Positions 1 through 24,091 of a DNA stretch of 30,087 bases are shown piece by piece (positions within the stretch are counted from its first letter, which is position 1; each line of letters opens with the position of its first letter). The stretch covers positions 1 to 30,087 of IMG/VR virus record IMGVR_UViG_3300042922_000105. One strand, given 5' to 3'. This DNA is from a virus. Both the position numbers and the translations under genes were made by a program. The notes under the pieces are model-generated. The model did no database searches. It was not told where the DNA came from and saw only the letters and a list, made by a program, of their open reading frames with translations.

Positions 1-7
1 TTCTCAC

Positions 8-29
8 TCACGTACACTTCACGTACACT
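8..29. repeat. Perfect 11-bp tandem direct repeat
   Basis: TCACGTACACT occurs at 8-18 and again immediately at 19-29. The 11-bp period is close to one helical turn, so a protein could read both copies on one face of the DNA. Further ACGT words follow at 41, 47, 58, 209, 227 and 236. The spacing is iteron- or operator-like; function unknown. Confidence 0.7.
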
Positions 30-68
30 GTCTGCCACGCACGTTCACGTTGGCACAACGTTAGCATC

Positions 69-89
69 TTGTGACCCCCAGGGTCGCAA
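69..89. repeat. Hairpin with 9-bp stem and 3-nt loop
   Basis: Bases 69-77 pair with 81-89 (one G-T wobble) around the loop CCA; the core is GACCC/GGGTC. No T-run follows on either side, so it is not an obvious intrinsic terminator. Confidence 0.5.
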
Positions 90-282
90 TTAAGTACCTC
101 GCATATGGAGTACATGGGGTGAGAGGGATATAATAACTAACTACCTGTTCACCTACTATTTTCTCATGAGTCAAAAAATATAATATATAAAAATTCTCAC
201 CGTATATCACGTATATGTCAAACAGAACGTGAGTTACGTATTCTAACAGTTCAGAGTAGTGTGCATAGTATTTATTGTATTA

Positions 283-304
283 TTTAAGTTCTTTCAAACT
301 TAAA
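283..304. repeat. 8-bp AT-rich inverted repeat
   Basis: TTTAAGTT (283-290) and AACTTAAA (297-304) are perfect inverted repeats around a 6-nt loop. It could be an operator or a weak RNA hairpin; nothing decides between them. Confidence 0.45.
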
Positions 305-335
305 GTACAGTGTTTATTACTACATTTCTTTCATA

Positions 336-394
336 TCAGACATCTATTAGATGCTAATAACAGGCTAAAATGTCTGACCATATTGCCGAGGTCA
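336..394. repeat. Nested inverted-repeat element
   Basis: TCAGACAT (336-343) is the exact inverse of ATGTCTGA (370-377). Inside it CATCT (341-345) pairs with AGATG (349-353), which shares bases with the outer arm. TGACC (375-379) pairs with GGTCA (390-394), which competes for the other arm. The three stems are mutually exclusive in part, as in a switching RNA or a clustered protein-binding site. Confidence 0.45.
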
Positions 395-560
395 GCTAAA
401 TGACATCATCAACAGAATGTATTATTTATTATCAAATCAGTAAAAATAGAGGTGTTTTATTAACACTATTATAAATAACGTAATACTACGAGAAACAGAG
501 AAAAACGGAGATAATGAAAGATAGTTTGCTAACATTATTCCTTGTGACAGATTATGATGT

Positions 561-589
561 TTGACACAATGAATTTAGGGTGGTATACT
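561..589 (+). promoter_or_regulatory. Consensus sigma-A promoter for the rightward operon
   Basis: The -35 hexamer TTGACA (561-566) is separated by exactly 17 bp from TATACT (584-589), a one-mismatch match to the full consensus. Transcription would start near 596 and run into all the structural genes. TTGTG (542-546) and CACAA (565-569) form an inverted repeat overlapping the -35, a possible but weak operator. Confidence 0.8.
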
Positions 590-774
590 CTTTATATAGG
601 GTTAACGGTCATACTTCCCTTATAACTCCTATAGTTTCTCCGCTTCGCTACGAAACAGAAAAGTTCTTCTACCTCAATGGAATAGTCTATTCTTTTATCA
701 AAAGTAATCAAAACTAGTAGATTTCACTTCAATATAACTTACCCCTATTATCCACAATGAGCTAATATAACTAT

Positions 775-787
775 GGTCGGAACGACC
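775..787 (+). other. Leader hairpin before the first ribosome-binding site
   Basis: GGTCG (775-779) pairs with CGACC (783-787) around a GAA loop, ten bases before the AAGGAG ribosome site of the first gene. It may protect or tune the 5' end of the message; this is inference. Confidence 0.4.
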
Positions 788-809
788 GCTAATAGAAGGA
801 GATGTGTAA

Positions 810-17457: not shown

Positions 17458-20400
17458 ATGGCTTATTATGATGAAGAAAGTAACTATGGTGGCTATAGGG
17501 GTTTATACACCCCTTCTACTTCTTTTGGTAAAAAGTTTGCAGAGAAGTCACGTTATGATAGTATGATTTTACAAATGGATGAAGAAACAAAGAAACGTTA
17601 TATAAATGACGAAGATTATAGATATGAGGTAGACAAGAGTTTTGGGTTTAAAGAACAATTTAACAACCCAATATTTCAAGATGAAAACTATAGAGAAAGT
17701 AAAACACAAGGTAGTGGTAGAGGTGCGTTAGCTAAAGTAATAGATTTTCTACAAACAGGTGCATATACATCAGCAGGGTTTTCTATGGGACTTGCTAAAG
17801 GAGAAGGTGTTGGTGGTGCATTAAAGAGAGCAGGAGAAGGATTTACAGCAGGATTTACTGGTAATGATGAAAAGTCATATCATTATTCTGATGTGTTAAG
17901 TGAAATGGGTCAATTTGAAGGTCATGATACTGCTAGAAAAGTAACTGGATTTATAGGTGATGTACTGTTAGACCCAACTACATATTTAGGTATAGGACTT
18001 ATAGATGATGTTGTTAAAGGTACTGGTAAAGTAGTTAAAGGTGCTGTTAATGGTAGTACTGATGTAGTTACTAAGACTGGTGGTAAGAGTGTAATAAAAG
18101 CCATGACTGATGATGATGCTATTAAAGTATTCAAATCACTTAAAGGTGATAATTATGTACCTAAAGTAGAAGAAGTTACTGAACTTATTAGGAGAACAAA
18201 TCAAACTAGAGGTATAAGAGAAACACAACCAATAACTGCATTTGGTAAAGAGTTAATATCAGGCGACACTATGAATAAACTTAGAAGTCCAATGAGAGCA
18301 CTAGGTGATAAAACAATAGCACCTTATGCACAAAAAGTTAAAGACTTTTTAGTTCATTCTAAACTATCAACTAAAGGAGATTTGGTTGACCTTGCACGTA
18401 CTAACCCAACTGCATTGAAGCAATACTTTGACTTTGCAGAAGAAGCAGGAAAACATGGTTTATCTCATTCTCAAGCAATAGCTAAAGCAGAAGAGCAATT
18501 CGCTTCACTTGATGGAATGGGTGATGAAGCAAATTCACTAGTTATGAAGCTAATGGAAGACGAAAAGTTGTTTAAGAAAATGAGTTCACAAACAGCTAGA
18601 GAAACGCAAGACTTTATGACAGAAGGTGCTGTACGTGGTGAACAAACAACTATGGATGATATGTTAAAGCAACAAGAACAATCAGTAGCAAAGACAACTA
18701 GTAACACACCAAATCTTGACGAGTTCCTAATGAGAACACAAGACCCTGACCACTTCAAAGGTTATAAGGCTTATAATAAACCTACTATTATTCCTGAAAT
18801 GAGTGAAGTAGCAATAACAAAAGACGTTGCCGATGATGTTGGCGAAGTTATAAACCTCAAAATACCTAATCCATATAAATATAGAGAAAAGATATTATCT
18901 AAGAAAGCAATAGCAAGTAAATATAATATAGATACAGCTACAATGCCTACTGTTATTAAGAACAAATCAGGTGAACTAGTTGATGAAAACACTGGAGAAA
19001 TAGTTAACTTCCTAAAAGGTGATTATCTTGAGAAAGCAACAATGAAAGAACTAAAAGAAATCAGTAGGAAGTTTAAGATAACTAATGGTGCAAAATATAC
19101 TGCTGACAATAAAAAGCTTTTAATAGATGATATAAGGATGAAATTCGATAAAAGAACTCCAATAAAAGAAGCACGTAGTAAACTTATAGATACAAAAGAA
19201 TATGCTAAATATACAACGTTGCAAGGTCAGAGTATAAAAGATGTAGCTGACATACCAGGTTTTGATATTAGAAACTTATCTGAGCATCTAACATATGTAG
19301 GCAAGCACAAGCTAATGTATGACATAATTGAAAAAGACCAGTGGATGTCAAATATATTCAAGCATCTTGTAAAGAACAACAAAATAAACACGCAAATCCC
19401 TGAACAAACACTAGATGATATATTATATAAATACCTAAGTGGTGAAACATCAAGTATTGTATCATCCACACATAGACTTCATAAAGACTATGGCAAGGCT
19501 AGTAAGCTAGTTACAAAGGAATTTGGTTCGTATGAGAAGTTAGACGAAGCAGGCAGAGCTAAGAGAATGAATAGAATATGGGAATACTACAACAACCCAA
19601 GAGAACTAGCAGAAAACTACTCCAGGTTAGAACAAGAGAACCTTATGAGTGGTGTTGGTAGAAACCTAGGAGAATATGATAATGAAGTTGAACGTTTAAT
19701 GCGTGATACAACATTTACTGATTTGAATACAGGTAAGAAATGGACTAAAAAAGGCAATACACCTGACATTCACAAGACATTAGAACAACAAGTATATGAC
19801 CAAAACAAAGCATTGAGTGAACTTGAAAATGCTAGGTTTGAAGGTAAGACATATGATGGTGGATATATGCCGATTGATATTGAAGATGTTGTGAAACAAC
19901 AAAATAAGAAGATATTTGAAAATAAAGCATTAAACAAATCCTATAAGAGTGGTGGATTGAGTGGATTACCTTATGATATGGTAAAAACATTTGATAAGCT
20001 ACTAACAGTAAATAAAAAATCATTGCCTGAGGATTTCAGCTTGAAACTAATAGAAGCAGAAATAACTGGTGGTAAACTCACACAAGCAGATATAGTTAAT
20101 GCAATGAAAGAGATTAAGTTTGGTGGTAAAGCTAATGCTGAAAGTACACTTGGACTTGCAAATGATAGAGTTAAAACAGCAATGAAGAAATTAGACGATA
20201 CTGTTAAGAAAAGAAATACAACATTAAATAACGTTATGAAATTAAGTGGACTCAATGATGATTTGATAAAGAACGGTAATCTTGCAAATCAAGTAGATGA
20301 ACTAGGTAAGTTACCTAAAGATATACAGAGTAAAGTTGTAACACCTTCCAAAGAAGTACAAGATACCATCAAATCAGTTAATGCTTTTACTGATGATAAG

Positions 20401-22395
20401 TATGAGTATACAACTAATTTATTCGATATAGCTAAGGCTAAGGTAGATGCTAGTAATACTGCTAAAACAGTTACGGAAGCAGAAGTTAAGTCAACTACTA
20501 AGGGTATTATATCAGATGACAAGATAGTAGATGACGTTATAAGAATAACTGACACTGAAAAATTAGCATTAAAATATGCAAAAGAACTTCGTAATACATT
20601 TAAAAATATAGGTGCAAAAGAAGTACAAGCAGGTAAGCTGAATGAAAAAGCATATGACGAAATGATGGGTAGTTATTTGTCACACGTAATGACACCACAA
20701 GCTAAAGGATTATGGGAAGGATTAAAGAAATCTAATCCTGATATGTATAATATGATGAAAGCAGGTAATAAAGGCAACCAATATGCAATCACTAGAGCAT
20801 TTACTAAAGGAACAACGTTACCTGATGGATATGTACTCAAAACTGGTAGTATAGAAGAAATCAATGAGCATATGGCTCAGTATCTAAGTGGCAACAAGAT
20901 GTTTGCAGATAAGGTAAGCGATATATACCTAGCACGTATGAAAGCACATGAGAATGTAATGTATGACTATAAATTAGCTGATGATATGGTTAATAAATTT
21001 GGTAGTAAAATGGAAGCAGGTACAGGACTCGGAAAGGGAGAAACAGGTATAATCAAAACTGCTGACATTAAAAGAGCATTAAATAAACTAGATGATGCTC
21101 AAAAGAAAACTATATATGAAAAGCTAGGACTAGAAGAAGGTTACTTTGATGGAACATATAAACCATTTATGAACTTAACTCCTGCACAAGCAGGTTATCT
21201 ATCCAAATCAAAAGGTGTTCCAGTATACAAAGTAAGTAAAGTAATGGCTGACAAAGCTGATAGTTTAGCTAAGACACAATTTGCAACTGATTTGCACGTA
21301 GCAGTTAAGATGTATGATAAATTCCTTACTCTATGGAAGACAAGTGTTACAGCAGTAAGACCAGGTTTTCATGCTAGAAACGCACAATCAAATGCATTTC
21401 AGAATTACTTAGATGTAGGTGTTAGAGCATATAATCCTGTATTCAATGGTAAGATGGCTATGATATCAGAAGGTAAAGAAGGTTTCCATACTATACTAGG
21501 AAAGAAATATTCATATCAAGAACTAAGAGAAAAAGCAGTTCAGTATGGTGTTGTTGACAAAGGCTTCTTTGAGAAAGACCTTGGTGAGAATACAATAACA
21601 GCACTTGATGGTAAGATAAATCCTAAATATAATCCTATAAATACTAAAGAGTTCTTTATATATAAAGGTGGTAGAAAGCTTGGTAACAAGGTAGAAAATC
21701 AAGCAAGAATGGCTAACTTTGTAGCTAACCTAGAAAGAGGAAAAGGCTTTCAAGAAGCAAGTGAACACACCAATAAGTTCCTATTTGATTATTCTGATTT
21801 GACCCCTTTTGAACAAAACGTTATGAAACGTATAGTTCCTTTTTATACATGGCTAAGAAAGAACGTTCCACTTCAAGCTGAAATGATTACAAGTAGTCCA
21901 CAAAAGTATTTACCATTTGTAAAAGCAATAGACAGAATGAATGAGGGCAAAGGCGAAGTACCTGACTATGCTAAGAACTGGGTACAGTTACCGTATACAA
22001 CTAAAGATAAAGACGGTAAAGAATACAACATAATGTGGAATAACTCACTACCATACAATGACCTTGGTAAAGTCACATCATTAAAAGATATGTGGGGTGG
22101 TATTAGTCCATTCATCAAAATACCAGTAGAACTAATAGCAGGTAAGAATATCTACTTTGAACAAGACATTAAAGGAAAACGTGGTGAGTATTTGACAGAA
22201 CAAGTACCAGGAGTATATGAAACTAAGAAATTAGATAAGGCATCAGGTAAACAACAAGCAGTAATAGCATCTGATTACATTGCAGGTACAGGACTCAGAA
22301 CAATGGAAACAGAAGAGAGTAAAAAGAAAAGCAGTTCAAGTAATAGGTTTAGTGCAATATATCAAAGATACTTAAAAGAGAAAGCTAATAAATAA
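17458..22395 (+). CDS. Giant internal virion protein (1645 residues)
   Basis: The largest gene, with AAGGAGG before the ATG. Residues about 85-190 are Gly/Ala-rich and amphipathic (GAYTSAGFSMGLAKGEGVGG and VLLDPTTYLGIGLIDDVVKG), a membrane-active type of segment. Long Lys/Glu-rich helical stretches follow. The C-terminal region has conserved-looking blocks: LTLWKTSVTAVRPGFHARN and, at about 1440-1475, FLFDYSDLTPFEQNVMKRIV then PFYTWLRKNVPLQ. The latter recurs in very large structural proteins of Gram-positive phages. It would be ejected ahead of the genome and help cross the membrane. No lysozyme or transglycosylase motif is evident to me. Confidence 0.65.
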   Translation: MAYYDEESNYGGYRGLYTPSTSFGKKFAEKSRYDSMILQMDEETKKRYINDEDYRYEVDKSFGFKEQFNNPIFQDENYRESKTQGSGRGALAKVIDFLQTGAYTSAGFSMGLAKGEGVGGALKRAGEGFTAGFTGNDEKSYHYSDVLSEMGQFEGHDTARKVTGFIGDVLLDPTTYLGIGLIDDVVKGTGKVVKGAVNGSTDVVTKTGGKSVIKAMTDDDAIKVFKSLKGDNYVPKVEEVTELIRRTNQTRGIRETQPITAFGKELISGDTMNKLRSPMRALGDKTIAPYAQKVKDFLVHSKLSTKGDLVDLARTNPTALKQYFDFAEEAGKHGLSHSQAIAKAEEQFASLDGMGDEANSLVMKLMEDEKLFKKMSSQTARETQDFMTEGAVRGEQTTMDDMLKQQEQSVAKTTSNTPNLDEFLMRTQDPDHFKGYKAYNKPTIIPEMSEVAITKDVADDVGEVINLKIPNPYKYREKILSKKAIASKYNIDTATMPTVIKNKSGELVDENTGEIVNFLKGDYLEKATMKELKEISRKFKITNGAKYTADNKKLLIDDIRMKFDKRTPIKEARSKLIDTKEYAKYTTLQGQSIKDVADIPGFDIRNLSEHLTYVGKHKLMYDIIEKDQWMSNIFKHLVKNNKINTQIPEQTLDDILYKYLSGETSSIVSSTHRLHKDYGKASKLVTKEFGSYEKLDEAGRAKRMNRIWEYYNNPRELAENYSRLEQENLMSGVGRNLGEYDNEVERLMRDTTFTDLNTGKKWTKKGNTPDIHKTLEQQVYDQNKALSELENARFEGKTYDGGYMPIDIEDVVKQQNKKIFENKALNKSYKSGGLSGLPYDMVKTFDKLLTVNKKSLPEDFSLKLIEAEITGGKLTQADIVNAMKEIKFGGKANAESTLGLANDRVKTAMKKLDDTVKKRNTTLNNVMKLSGLNDDLIKNGNLANQVDELGKLPKDIQSKVVTPSKEVQDTIKSVNAFTDDKYEYTTNLFDIAKAKVDASNTAKTVTEAEVKSTTKGIISDDKIVDDVIRITDTEKLALKYAKELRNTFKNIGAKEVQAGKLNEKAYDEMMGSYLSHVMTPQAKGLWEGLKKSNPDMYNMMKAGNKGNQYAITRAFTKGTTLPDGYVLKTGSIEEINEHMAQYLSGNKMFADKVSDIYLARMKAHENVMYDYKLADDMVNKFGSKMEAGTGLGKGETGIIKTADIKRALNKLDDAQKKTIYEKLGLEEGYFDGTYKPFMNLTPAQAGYLSKSKGVPVYKVSKVMADKADSLAKTQFATDLHVAVKMYDKFLTLWKTSVTAVRPGFHARNAQSNAFQNYLDVGVRAYNPVFNGKMAMISEGKEGFHTILGKKYSYQELREKAVQYGVVDKGFFEKDLGENTITALDGKINPKYNPINTKEFFIYKGGRKLGNKVENQARMANFVANLERGKGFQEASEHTNKFLFDYSDLTPFEQNVMKRIVPFYTWLRKNVPLQAEMITSSPQKYLPFVKAIDRMNEGKGEVPDYAKNWVQLPYTTKDKDGKEYNIMWNNSLPYNDLGKVTSLKDMWGGISPFIKIPVELIAGKNIYFEQDIKGKRGEYLTEQVPGVYETKKLDKASGKQQAVIASDYIAGTGLRTMETEESKKKSSSSNRFSAIYQRYLKEKANK

Positions 22396-22501
22396 GCACG
22401 TAAGGCTGTTTTAAGAGCAAGTACAGGTTTAGCAAGCTAGTACATCAAATAATATCTAAGTGCTCTCAGAATTGACGTAGTGCGTATGTGGAGGTATGTA
22501 T
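22396..22501 (+). other. Structured intergenic segment before the XhlA-like gene
   Basis: AGAGCA (22414-22419) pairs with TGCTCT (22461-22466), enclosing GTAC...GTAC and the quasi-palindrome TAGCAAGCTA (22430-22439). No T-run follows, so this is not a standard terminator. The segment holds the first copy of a 16-bp repeat that returns at 23147. It may be an RNA structure controlling lysis gene expression, or a protein-binding site. Confidence 0.45.
22427..22442 (+). repeat. 16-bp direct repeat, copy 1
   Basis: GTTTAGCAAGCTAGTA, identical to 23147-23162. The core TAGCAAGCTA is nearly palindromic. The two copies lie 720 bp apart on either side of the XhlA/holin genes. Confidence 0.65.
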
Positions 22502-22695: not shown

Positions 22696-22902
22696 TTGCA
22701 AATCAAAGAAAGATTAAGGAATAAATTATGGGTAGCTAGTTTAATATCATTCATAATTTTACTTGCAAAGACATTCAATCTATTTGAAGTACCTAGTAAC
22801 ATTGATACATTGGTAGATTTGTTTCTAAGTATTCTATCAGGAGCAGGAATACTAATTGACCCACTTACACCAGGTTTCAAGGATAACGATATAGATATGT
22901 AA
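22696..22902 (+). CDS. Holin, phi LC3 family-like
   Basis: 68 residues. The start is TTG 22696 (AGGAGG at 22681-22686); the ATG at 22691 is in another frame and closes after eight codons. Two membrane segments are visible (about 12-30 and 39-56). The C-terminal GILIDPLTPGFKDNDI matches the ILxDPTTxGxxDS ending of phi LC3-type holins. It would open the membrane so that the amidase reaches the wall. It is the last gene of the rightward operon and is followed directly by a terminator. Confidence 0.85.
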   Translation: MQIKERLRNKLWVASLISFIILLAKTFNLFEVPSNIDTLVDLFLSILSGAGILIDPLTPGFKDNDIDM

Positions 22903-22904
22903 AG

Positions 22905-22931
22905 TAAAAAGACACCAATTACGGTGTCTTT
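22905..22931. terminator. Bidirectional intrinsic terminator between convergent arms
   Basis: AAAGACACC (22908-22916) pairs with GGTGTCTTT (22923-22931) around a 6-nt loop. On the + strand TTTCTGTTTG follows. On the - strand the stem runs into TTTTTAC (22910-22904), the better T-run. It can therefore end the rightward late message and any leftward transcript entering from 23200. Confidence 0.85.
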
Positions 22932-22998
22932 CTGTTTGTGGGTATATTTCCCCACGTTGTATATTATGAAACTAAATGGGCACTATGTTATTACGTAT

Positions 22999-23012
22999 TC
23001 AACTAGTAGCAA
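22999..23012 (+). repeat. 14-bp direct repeat, copy 1
   Basis: TCAACTAGTAGCAA, identical to 23163-23176. The two copies bracket the hairpin-rich centre of the convergent region; ACTAGT inside is a palindrome. Confidence 0.6.
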
Positions 23013-23146
23013 GCATTCTTTAAATCCTTTCGGATTTGATGTCAGTTTGGTATTTAGTAGACTCAAATCAGAGAAAGTATTTATTCTGAACTGATGTATT
23101 CAACCAAGTACCATCACTGTAAGTCCGAAAGGACTTAAAAAGCACT

Positions 23147-23176
23147 GTTTAGCAAGCTAGTATCAACTAGTAGCAA
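23147..23176 (+). repeat. Second copies of the 16-bp and 14-bp repeats, nearly adjacent
   Basis: GTTTAGCAAGCTAGTA (23147-23162) repeats 22427-22442, and TCAACTAGTAGCAA (23163-23176) repeats 22999-23012. Here they abut. CTAGT (23159-23163) and ACTAG (23166-23170) can also form a small hairpin across the junction. Confidence 0.6.
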
Positions 23177-23207
23177 CCTGTTTACTACGTAGGTATTGTG
23201 TACCTTT

Positions 23208-23237
23208 ATATTAGCATGATTGTCAACATCTTGTCAA
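23208..23237 (-). promoter_or_regulatory. Leftward sigma-A promoter with extended -10
   Basis: On the - strand TTGACA (23237-23232) is followed after 18 bp by TAATAT (23213-23208), preceded by TGC, an extended -10. A second TTGACA lies 11 bp inside the spacer (23226-23221), forming a TTGACAA direct repeat with an 11-bp period that could also be an operator. Start expected near 23203-23201. It drives no visible gene before the terminator at 22905-22931. Confidence 0.6.
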
Positions 23238-23335
23238 GTTTCAAAATTGGCGCTTTTGTCTTCTTTTTAGTATATTAACTCTACCATGCTAATTATTTCG
23301 CAGTTTCTCATAGATTTGCTAAGTTTTCATTTAAC

Positions 23336-23762
23336 TTACCAATTACTGTAATCAACAGGGTATATTTTGATGTCAACTCTCGGATTGACTTTATCATATA
23401 ATACCCTGTTAATCCTAGTCATACAGTAATAATCGTTATGAAAATATATTCCTTGAAGTGCATCCATTAGTATCTTTAATGTATTATGGCTATCACGTAC
23501 TCTTCTGTCAGCAAAATAGAAATCCATATCAACATAATACCATACGTCTTTCTTATCTAACTGCCAACCTTGCTTGTGCATTTCTTCTATACATATAGAC
23601 CTACTATCTGCAAACCAATTTAGTGCTTTCTTAGTAAGTCTTCTTGTTTTGCCATAATACATATGGTTAACACTAGGGCGGAATTGAAAGGGTAACAGAT
23701 ACTAGTTGATTAGGGTAAGATGGTGTTTCCCTATATAAATCTGCTATCTCTTCTTTTGCCAT
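23336..23762 (-). CDS. rusA: RusA-type Holliday junction resolvase, split by a +1 frame change
   Basis: The first frame starts at ATG 23762, sharing an A with the MazG stop (TAATG), and reads 29 codons to CCC at 23678-23676 before TAG (23675-23673). The second frame begins at AGT 23674 and runs to 23336. A +1 slip from CCC to CCT joins them into 141 residues and recreates VSVTLSIPPSVNHMYYG, the conserved RusA N-terminus (compare SITLPWPPSNNRYYR of E. coli RusA). Catalytic-region residues are D90, H92 (Asp in E. coli) and K96 in RRVRDSHNTLKILMDAL, plus D110. The enzyme would resolve branched DNA before packaging. Without the shift, internal initiation at ATG 23662 gives a 108-residue protein lacking the first strand. 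It could be programmed recoding, a mutation or a sequence error. Confidence 0.8.
23673..23681 (-). promoter_or_regulatory. Candidate +1 frameshift site CCG-CCC-TAG-T
   Basis: A proline codon that can slip from CCC to CCT lies directly before a TAG stop, the arrangement known from +1 recoding sites such as release-factor-2 CTT-TGA. No Shine-Dalgarno-like booster is visible just upstream. Confidence 0.45.
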
Positions 23763-24091
23763 TAGTCATCAACTCTGTTTATACTTTTTTCTGAACTGAA
23801 ACCGTCAGGAAACCTTTTTAATAGCTTATCAACATTATGTTCAGCTATTTCATCTAATGTACGACCAATTGCCTTTGCACTAATAGCTAAATACCAAAGT
23901 ACATCACCTAATTCATCTAGCATTTTCTCTGTATTAAATTTATGACCTTGAAATAAGAACTTCTTTAGCAAGTCTATACATTCTCCTGACTCTCCATTAA
24001 GACCCATAAGACCATTTAGAAGCATTTTTGTATTGCTGTCATATTCTCCTGCTGTTCTTAATGCTTTCTCTTGATACTCATTTAATTGCAT
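23762..24091 (-). CDS. MazG-like nucleotide pyrophosphohydrolase
   Basis: 109 residues. The all-alpha NTP-PPase motif pair is present: ExxE at E34-E37 (LNGESGECIDLLKK) and ExxD at E60-D63 (DELGDVLWYLAI). The C-terminal helix (TLDEIAEHNVDKLLKRFPDG) is standard for the phage subgroup. It would hydrolyse a nucleoside triphosphate to the monophosphate, cleaning or balancing the nucleotide pool, or lower alarmone levels in the infected cell. AGGGGG precedes the ATG. Its stop overlaps the resolvase start, so the two are translationally coupled. Confidence 0.85.
   Translation of the reverse strand: MQLNEYQEKALRTAGEYDSNTKMLLNGLMGLNGESGECIDLLKKFLFQGHKFNTEKMLDELGDVLWYLAISAKAIGRTLDEIAEHNVDKLLKRFPDGFSSEKSINRVDD

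Follow-up and report, generated by a model that had tools for sequence, protein, structure and literature searches.

What does the noncoding segment between the two convergent transcription units of a phage genome contain: an RNA gene of its own, an element acting as DNA, or simply the boundary of two operons? The genome is known from a linear IMG/VR virus record of 30,087 bp, the whole of which was analyzed here (the window). A preliminary description of the segment had proposed a structured RNA. Our analysis points to a real and conserved element, most likely an RNA gene without known family. With moderate confidence, we interpret it as a phage-encoded structured noncoding RNA gene that has its own promoter and terminator and is probably expressed with the late genes.

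Genomic Context and Distribution of the Element

The plus-strand genes extending to position 22902 carry late functions (terminase, portal, capsid, tail-like proteins, and amidase). The late unit also encodes a 1645-aa protein and then two small lysis proteins, the second of which is a holin according to its PHROG match, with its gene end at 22902. The minus-strand genes from 23336 on, where the gene of a RusA-like resolvase ends, encode this resolvase, a MazG-like protein, an exonuclease and a DnaE polymerase. The convergent gap between the late and early units is 22903–23335. The extent of the element is better set at ~22899–23322, with the block upstream of the promoter included (Table 1).

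No close relative of the window phage was found among isolated phages, and IMG/VR contained a single one (locus L002, from a 44,399-bp record). The orthologues detected in the two phages share 45–89% protein identity, the gene order around the element is the same, and the element itself is located at the matching locus of the relative with a DNA identity of 70%. The IMG/VR and GTDB scans together gave only two homologues of the element, those of the window and L002, and relatives were possibly overlooked, as the alignment-mode locus searches picked poor seed patterns. No homologues were revealed among phage and plasmid records. The 15-mer TTTAGCAAGCTAGTA was present in 21 IMG/VR contigs, but its flanking sequences were unrelated; a search with AAGTCCTTTCGGACTTA returned L002 only, plus two unrelated terminator-like hairpins. 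The element is also absent from distant relatives of the 1645-aa protein (~30% identity). This protein (window 17458–22395) has, for its C-terminal part, ~30% identical relatives in other uncultured phages, and weaker, partly N-terminal matches were observed in Arthrobacter and Cellulosimicrobium phages.

Table 1. Features of the element and of related regions of the window.
Feature	Position	Strand	Basis or conservation
Bidirectional intrinsic terminator, common to the predicted leftward RNA and the rightward late operon	22900–22935	.	Sequence; kept in L002
Predicted structured noncoding RNA, ~290–300 nt	22905–23203	-	Folding; conservation in L002
Small hairpin between core and terminator	22937–22956	.	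Hairpin also in L002, sequence unrelated
Terminator-proximal arm (inverted copy); GAAA-loop hairpin on minus strand at 23019–23038	22983–23095	+	Four pairs compensated in L002
Core, an imperfect palindrome (TACGTA to TACGTA); either strand folds as a cruciform-like four-way junction	22992–23191	.	Palindrome scoring and folding
Promoter-proximal arm; hairpin TAAGTCC-TTTC-GGACTTA at 23120–23137	23062–23175	-	Arm alignment
16 nt of the predicted RNA, perfect complement to the lysis-gene leader	23147–23162	-	Duplex search, window phage
Extended sigma70-type promoter TTGACA-18-TAATAT with TG (TGnTAATAT)	23208–23237	-	Sequence; aligned site in L002
Conserved sequence block preceding the promoter; GAGAAAnnGnGAAA lies ~71–73 nt before the -35	23238–23322	-	Resembles block upstream of late promoter
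Complementary site in the lysis-gene leader	22427–22442	+	Not conserved in L002
Third arm copy, left-end noncoding region; hairpin TTTAAGTTCTTTCAAACTTA at 283–302	254–358	+	Pairwise alignment and arm model

Promoter, Terminator and Coding Capacity

The leftward promoter noted in the preliminary description (TTGACA, 18 bp, extended TAATAT) is present on the minus strand, and the predicted start lies at ~23201–23203. In a region this AT-rich, sites of this kind are frequent (40 vs 31.5 expected). Taken alone against shuffles, the predicted promoter is non-significant; its support comes from conservation. The aligned site of the relative is TTGACA-18-TATCAT with TG, so that the -35, TG, -10 and 18-bp spacing are kept in the pairwise alignment while much of the spacer has diverged, and a shared extended promoter site was observed in none of 2000 column shuffles. 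The conserved promoter that would be expected of an independent noncoding RNA gene is therefore found here.

The stretch comprising the upstream block and promoter is 84% identical between the two phages. The upstream block resembles that of the strong late promoter at 561–589 (column-shuffle p 0.0004). This resemblance suggests control in common with the late genes, from which we infer late expression. As to the late operon itself, its leader (window 590–809, ~220 nt) contains strongly conserved stretches (e.g., 672–714) and two small hairpins, and possibly serves as an antitermination or attenuation leader.

The terminator hairpin occupies 22908–22931 and has a T-rich tail on both strands. 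The T-run had been described as best on the strand of the RNA; it is slightly better on the minus strand, but the terminator is bidirectional. A conserved same-strand intrinsic terminator, the second mark of an independent noncoding RNA gene, is thus present and serves the other strand too.

The same property would be expected if the locus were a boundary of convergent transcription only, in which a bidirectional terminator adjoins the structured 3' ends of the two opposing operons and no separate RNA is made. The terminator hairpin could serve both strands by its sequence, and no other terminator of the leftward early operon was seen. Moreover, in the LUZ24-like phage tf, which also has a two-unit convergent genome of ~45 kb, the units are parted where they meet by a predicted bidirectional terminator of only ~42 bp (PMC3517423). 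Unlike phage tf, the locus studied here adds a promoter and a 200-bp palindrome. We consider a mere boundary unlikely, because a terminator needs ~40 bp vs the ~400 bp conserved here, including the promoter and upstream block, and because an arm of the element is repeated at the genome end.

In agreement with the ~300 bases without a usable ORF noted earlier, the ~290-nt segment contains no conserved ORF and no small conserved peptide. The only ORF in the segment, on the plus strand, encodes 56 aa from a GTG start (22924–23094), and a scan revealed no short ORFs with an RBS-like upstream sequence common to both phages.

Predicted Fold and Palindromic Core

The predicted minus-strand fold has an energy of -84.9 kcal/mol (z -5.9), with none of 100 shuffles as good, and the element of the relative gives z -8.0. 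None of 199 other minus-strand windows of 300 nt was as extreme (best z -4.1, lowest energy -76.2). The plus strand folds equally (z -5.7). The local hairpins recognized earlier are real, but their number varies with the structure taken, at about five or six rather than at least six; the minimum free energy structure of the window merges two of them into one long stem that is 5.8 kcal/mol better than the local form.

The core of the element is an imperfect palindrome with a length of ~185–200 bp. Its local score is 57.6 vs a null maximum of 17.8 in L002 and 26.4 vs 15.4 in the window, and it is clearest in the relative, where 16 bp of the outer stem are perfect. Since the core is palindromic, the fold alone can choose neither a strand nor RNA over DNA. 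The relative, which keeps the promoter, terminator and hairpins with compensating changes, supports the proposal of a structured RNA that has a promoter and terminator of its own. The preliminary description had overlooked this core, as well as the arm at the left genome end and the likeness of the promoter to the late promoter.

Arm Copies and Compensatory Changes

Each arm comprises a hairpin with a constant TTTC loop (GAAA on the other strand) and a variable stem. Besides the two arms of the core, both phages have a single arm in their left-end noncoding region (269–378 of L049 in the relative). The left-end arms were found by pairwise alignment and also by an arm model whose construction included them; a model from the two full-length RNAs, in which the left-end arms were not included, recovers them as well (E 0.0008 for L049). 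The left-end noncoding region (window 1–809; L049 1–815) is conserved in patches and, by itself, revealed no exceptional foldability (z -1.3 and -1.9). The contig starts of the two phages lie within ~64 nt of each other at this end, suggesting that it is a physical genome end.

In the seven-pair hairpin compared over six arm copies, four of the seven pairs have double-sided changes and 97.6% of cells are paired, and the pairing collapses when the partner column is slid. Hairpins lost in relatives without compensating changes had been named as evidence against the RNA. The relative keeps the hairpins, and four pairs of the terminator-proximal hairpin alone have changed on both sides. The structure is therefore kept by compensatory changes, as in an independent noncoding RNA gene, within two phages only (six arms). 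Such structure-preserving evolution makes a plain, sequence-specific site in double-strand DNA less likely but fails to separate RNA from hairpin DNA.

The promoter-proximal arm is 88% identical between the phages (82/93) vs 72% for the distal arm (57/79), a difference with Fisher p 0.011 from a weak test, as it is one comparison and the alignment of the two distal arms is difficult. Better conservation of the promoter-proximal arm would be expected if transcription reads a single strand and the sole demand on the second arm is to pair, and this polarity favors a minus-strand RNA over a double-strand DNA site. In total, three facts favor a leftward RNA, namely the conserved promoter, the same-strand terminator and the polarity of conservation.

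The palindrome and the left-end arm may instead be used as DNA, as single-strand hairpins or a cruciform, in replication, recombination or genome processing, with any transcript being incidental. The near-palindrome is found in both phages with scores above the null maxima, both strands fold alike (the plus strand as good or better), and another arm is located at the left end, where both contigs begin. The element also lies 49% along the 44.4-kb relative, coincides with the GC-skew maximum of both phages, and has as its next gene that of a RusA-type Holliday-junction resolvase. However, the promoter and terminator are conserved around the palindrome, the two arms are unequally conserved, and any flip in gene direction is expected to give a maximum of the skew. 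We thus consider a DNA-level element somewhat unlikely. As to a replication origin at the palindrome, it is disfavored, since all genes would meet forks head-on and both gene direction and skew point towards the palindrome; by the same features, any origin would be placed at the left end.

Comparison With Known RNAs and Repeats

The earlier statement that the element fits no recognized RNA class was borne out. Among 4227 Rfam families, including phi29 pRNA, none matched at the gathering threshold, and relaxed matches were at chance level and to unrelated models. Neither tRNA nor tmRNA was found. Apart from phi29 pRNA and large RNAs of the GOLLD/ROOL type, few phage structured RNAs of this size are known.

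A packaging-type role had also been suggested. Like phi29 pRNA (RF00044), the candidate is a phage structured RNA whose paired hairpins have loops able to base-pair, and its complementary UUUC and GAAA loops might join copies into a ring; the two side hairpins with complementary tetraloops are predicted in both phages, and the junction fold is compact. Nevertheless, the loop complementarity follows from the palindrome, and the candidate differs from phi29 pRNA in being larger and palindromic, in lacking a covariance-model match at gathering or relaxed thresholds, and in its packaging proteins. A phi29-type system has a phi29-like packaging ATPase and a terminal-protein genome; here, we found a large-subunit TerL-type terminase match beside an HTH protein, a portal-family match and a DnaE polymerase. 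We found no specific support for this role and regard it as highly improbable.

Lambda OOP is an example of a phage small noncoding RNA gene with its own promoter and terminator. The candidate resembles OOP-type genes in its short predicted transcript, host-type promoter, intrinsic terminator and location in a phage intergenic region, but differs in the near-palindromic four-way-junction fold, the arm repeat at the genome end and the lack of a conserved antisense target. Repeats of the REP/BIME type are short hairpins found in inverted pairs between convergent genes. The candidate also contains inverted short hairpins between convergent genes, but there are three arm copies only, at two places kept in both phages, and they are accompanied by a promoter. 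No RAYT protein was found among the window proteins examined.

Complementarity to the Lysis-Gene Leader

The preliminary description had further proposed antisense regulation of the lysis genes. The RNA would pair with the holin-gene leader through 16 nt and delay or tune lysis. This perfect complement is longer than the longest in 200 shuffled leaders (10) and the next longest in the genome (12), the leader gives the best duplex with the predicted RNA among 2960 windows of its own genome, and the complementary site is located inside a leader stem-loop. However, the energy of the full-leader duplex stands out only mildly (it was matched by 8 of 200 shuffles), and the 16-nt stretch belongs to an insertion that is specific to the RNA of the window phage. 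The longest complement to the lysis leader in L002 has 9 nt, and the duplex there is unremarkable. As the relative lacks the complement and no strong pairing with mRNA at translation starts is common to both phages, antisense control of lysis is possible in the window phage, yet is not the conserved feature; on the whole, we find it quite unlikely. It should be added that the leader itself (window 22396–22495; L002 12801–12902) has a stem of the TTTTAAGAGC...GCTCTTAAAA type that is common to the two phages, whereas its loop differs strongly between them.

Proposed Expression and Role of the RNA

Transcription of the element, its timing and its action as RNA are inferred from sequence. According to the favored reading of a structured RNA gene, a host-type RNA polymerase would start leftward near 23202, probably when the late genes are expressed, since the promoter has upstream sequence in common with the late promoter. 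The transcript would form a near-palindromic core of ~200 nt, with a closing stem and a four-way junction that has a long middle stem and two side hairpins, the 5' one with a UUUC loop and the 3' one with a GAAA loop; transcription would stop at the terminator common with the late operon.

Among possible mechanisms we favor, with low confidence, one in which the arms are bound by a factor of the phage or host; this factor would recognize the left-end copy as well, and the RNA would then be its late-made competitor or carrier. Both this factor and its binding to the hairpin arms are conjecture. It is rather improbable, albeit conceivable, that late palindromic four-way-junction RNAs represent a new class; their arms, as copies of a hairpin element from the genome terminus, would link the RNA to a DNA-end event (replication or packaging) or to a factor binding there. 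If transcribed, the element offers a small testable case of an RNA and a genome-end element with a common hairpin arm, and of a phage RNA with a possible additional influence on lysis timing. Should the element act as DNA, it marks a functional site mid-way in a convergent phage genome.

Other Features of the Two Phages

In the RusA gene, an extra base that is conserved divides the reading frame in two (window 23640–23770, minus strand; L002 14030–14110). Frame 0 reads ...VTLSIPP followed by CCC TAG, while the +1 frame goes on with SVNHMYYG. The extra base is kept in both phages, whereas the L040 homologue has LPPSVNHMY within a single frame. By its sequence, this split looks like programmed +1 frameshifting at CCC_UAG.

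A predicted phage ubiquitin-like module of the relative consists of a ThiF/E1-like protein together with a protein carrying three ubiquitin-like (SAMP2-like) repeats in tandem (L050 17351–18019 and L051 1504–2136). A FolD-type methylenetetrahydrofolate dehydrogenase/cyclohydrolase is likewise encoded by the relative (L050 11688–12548).
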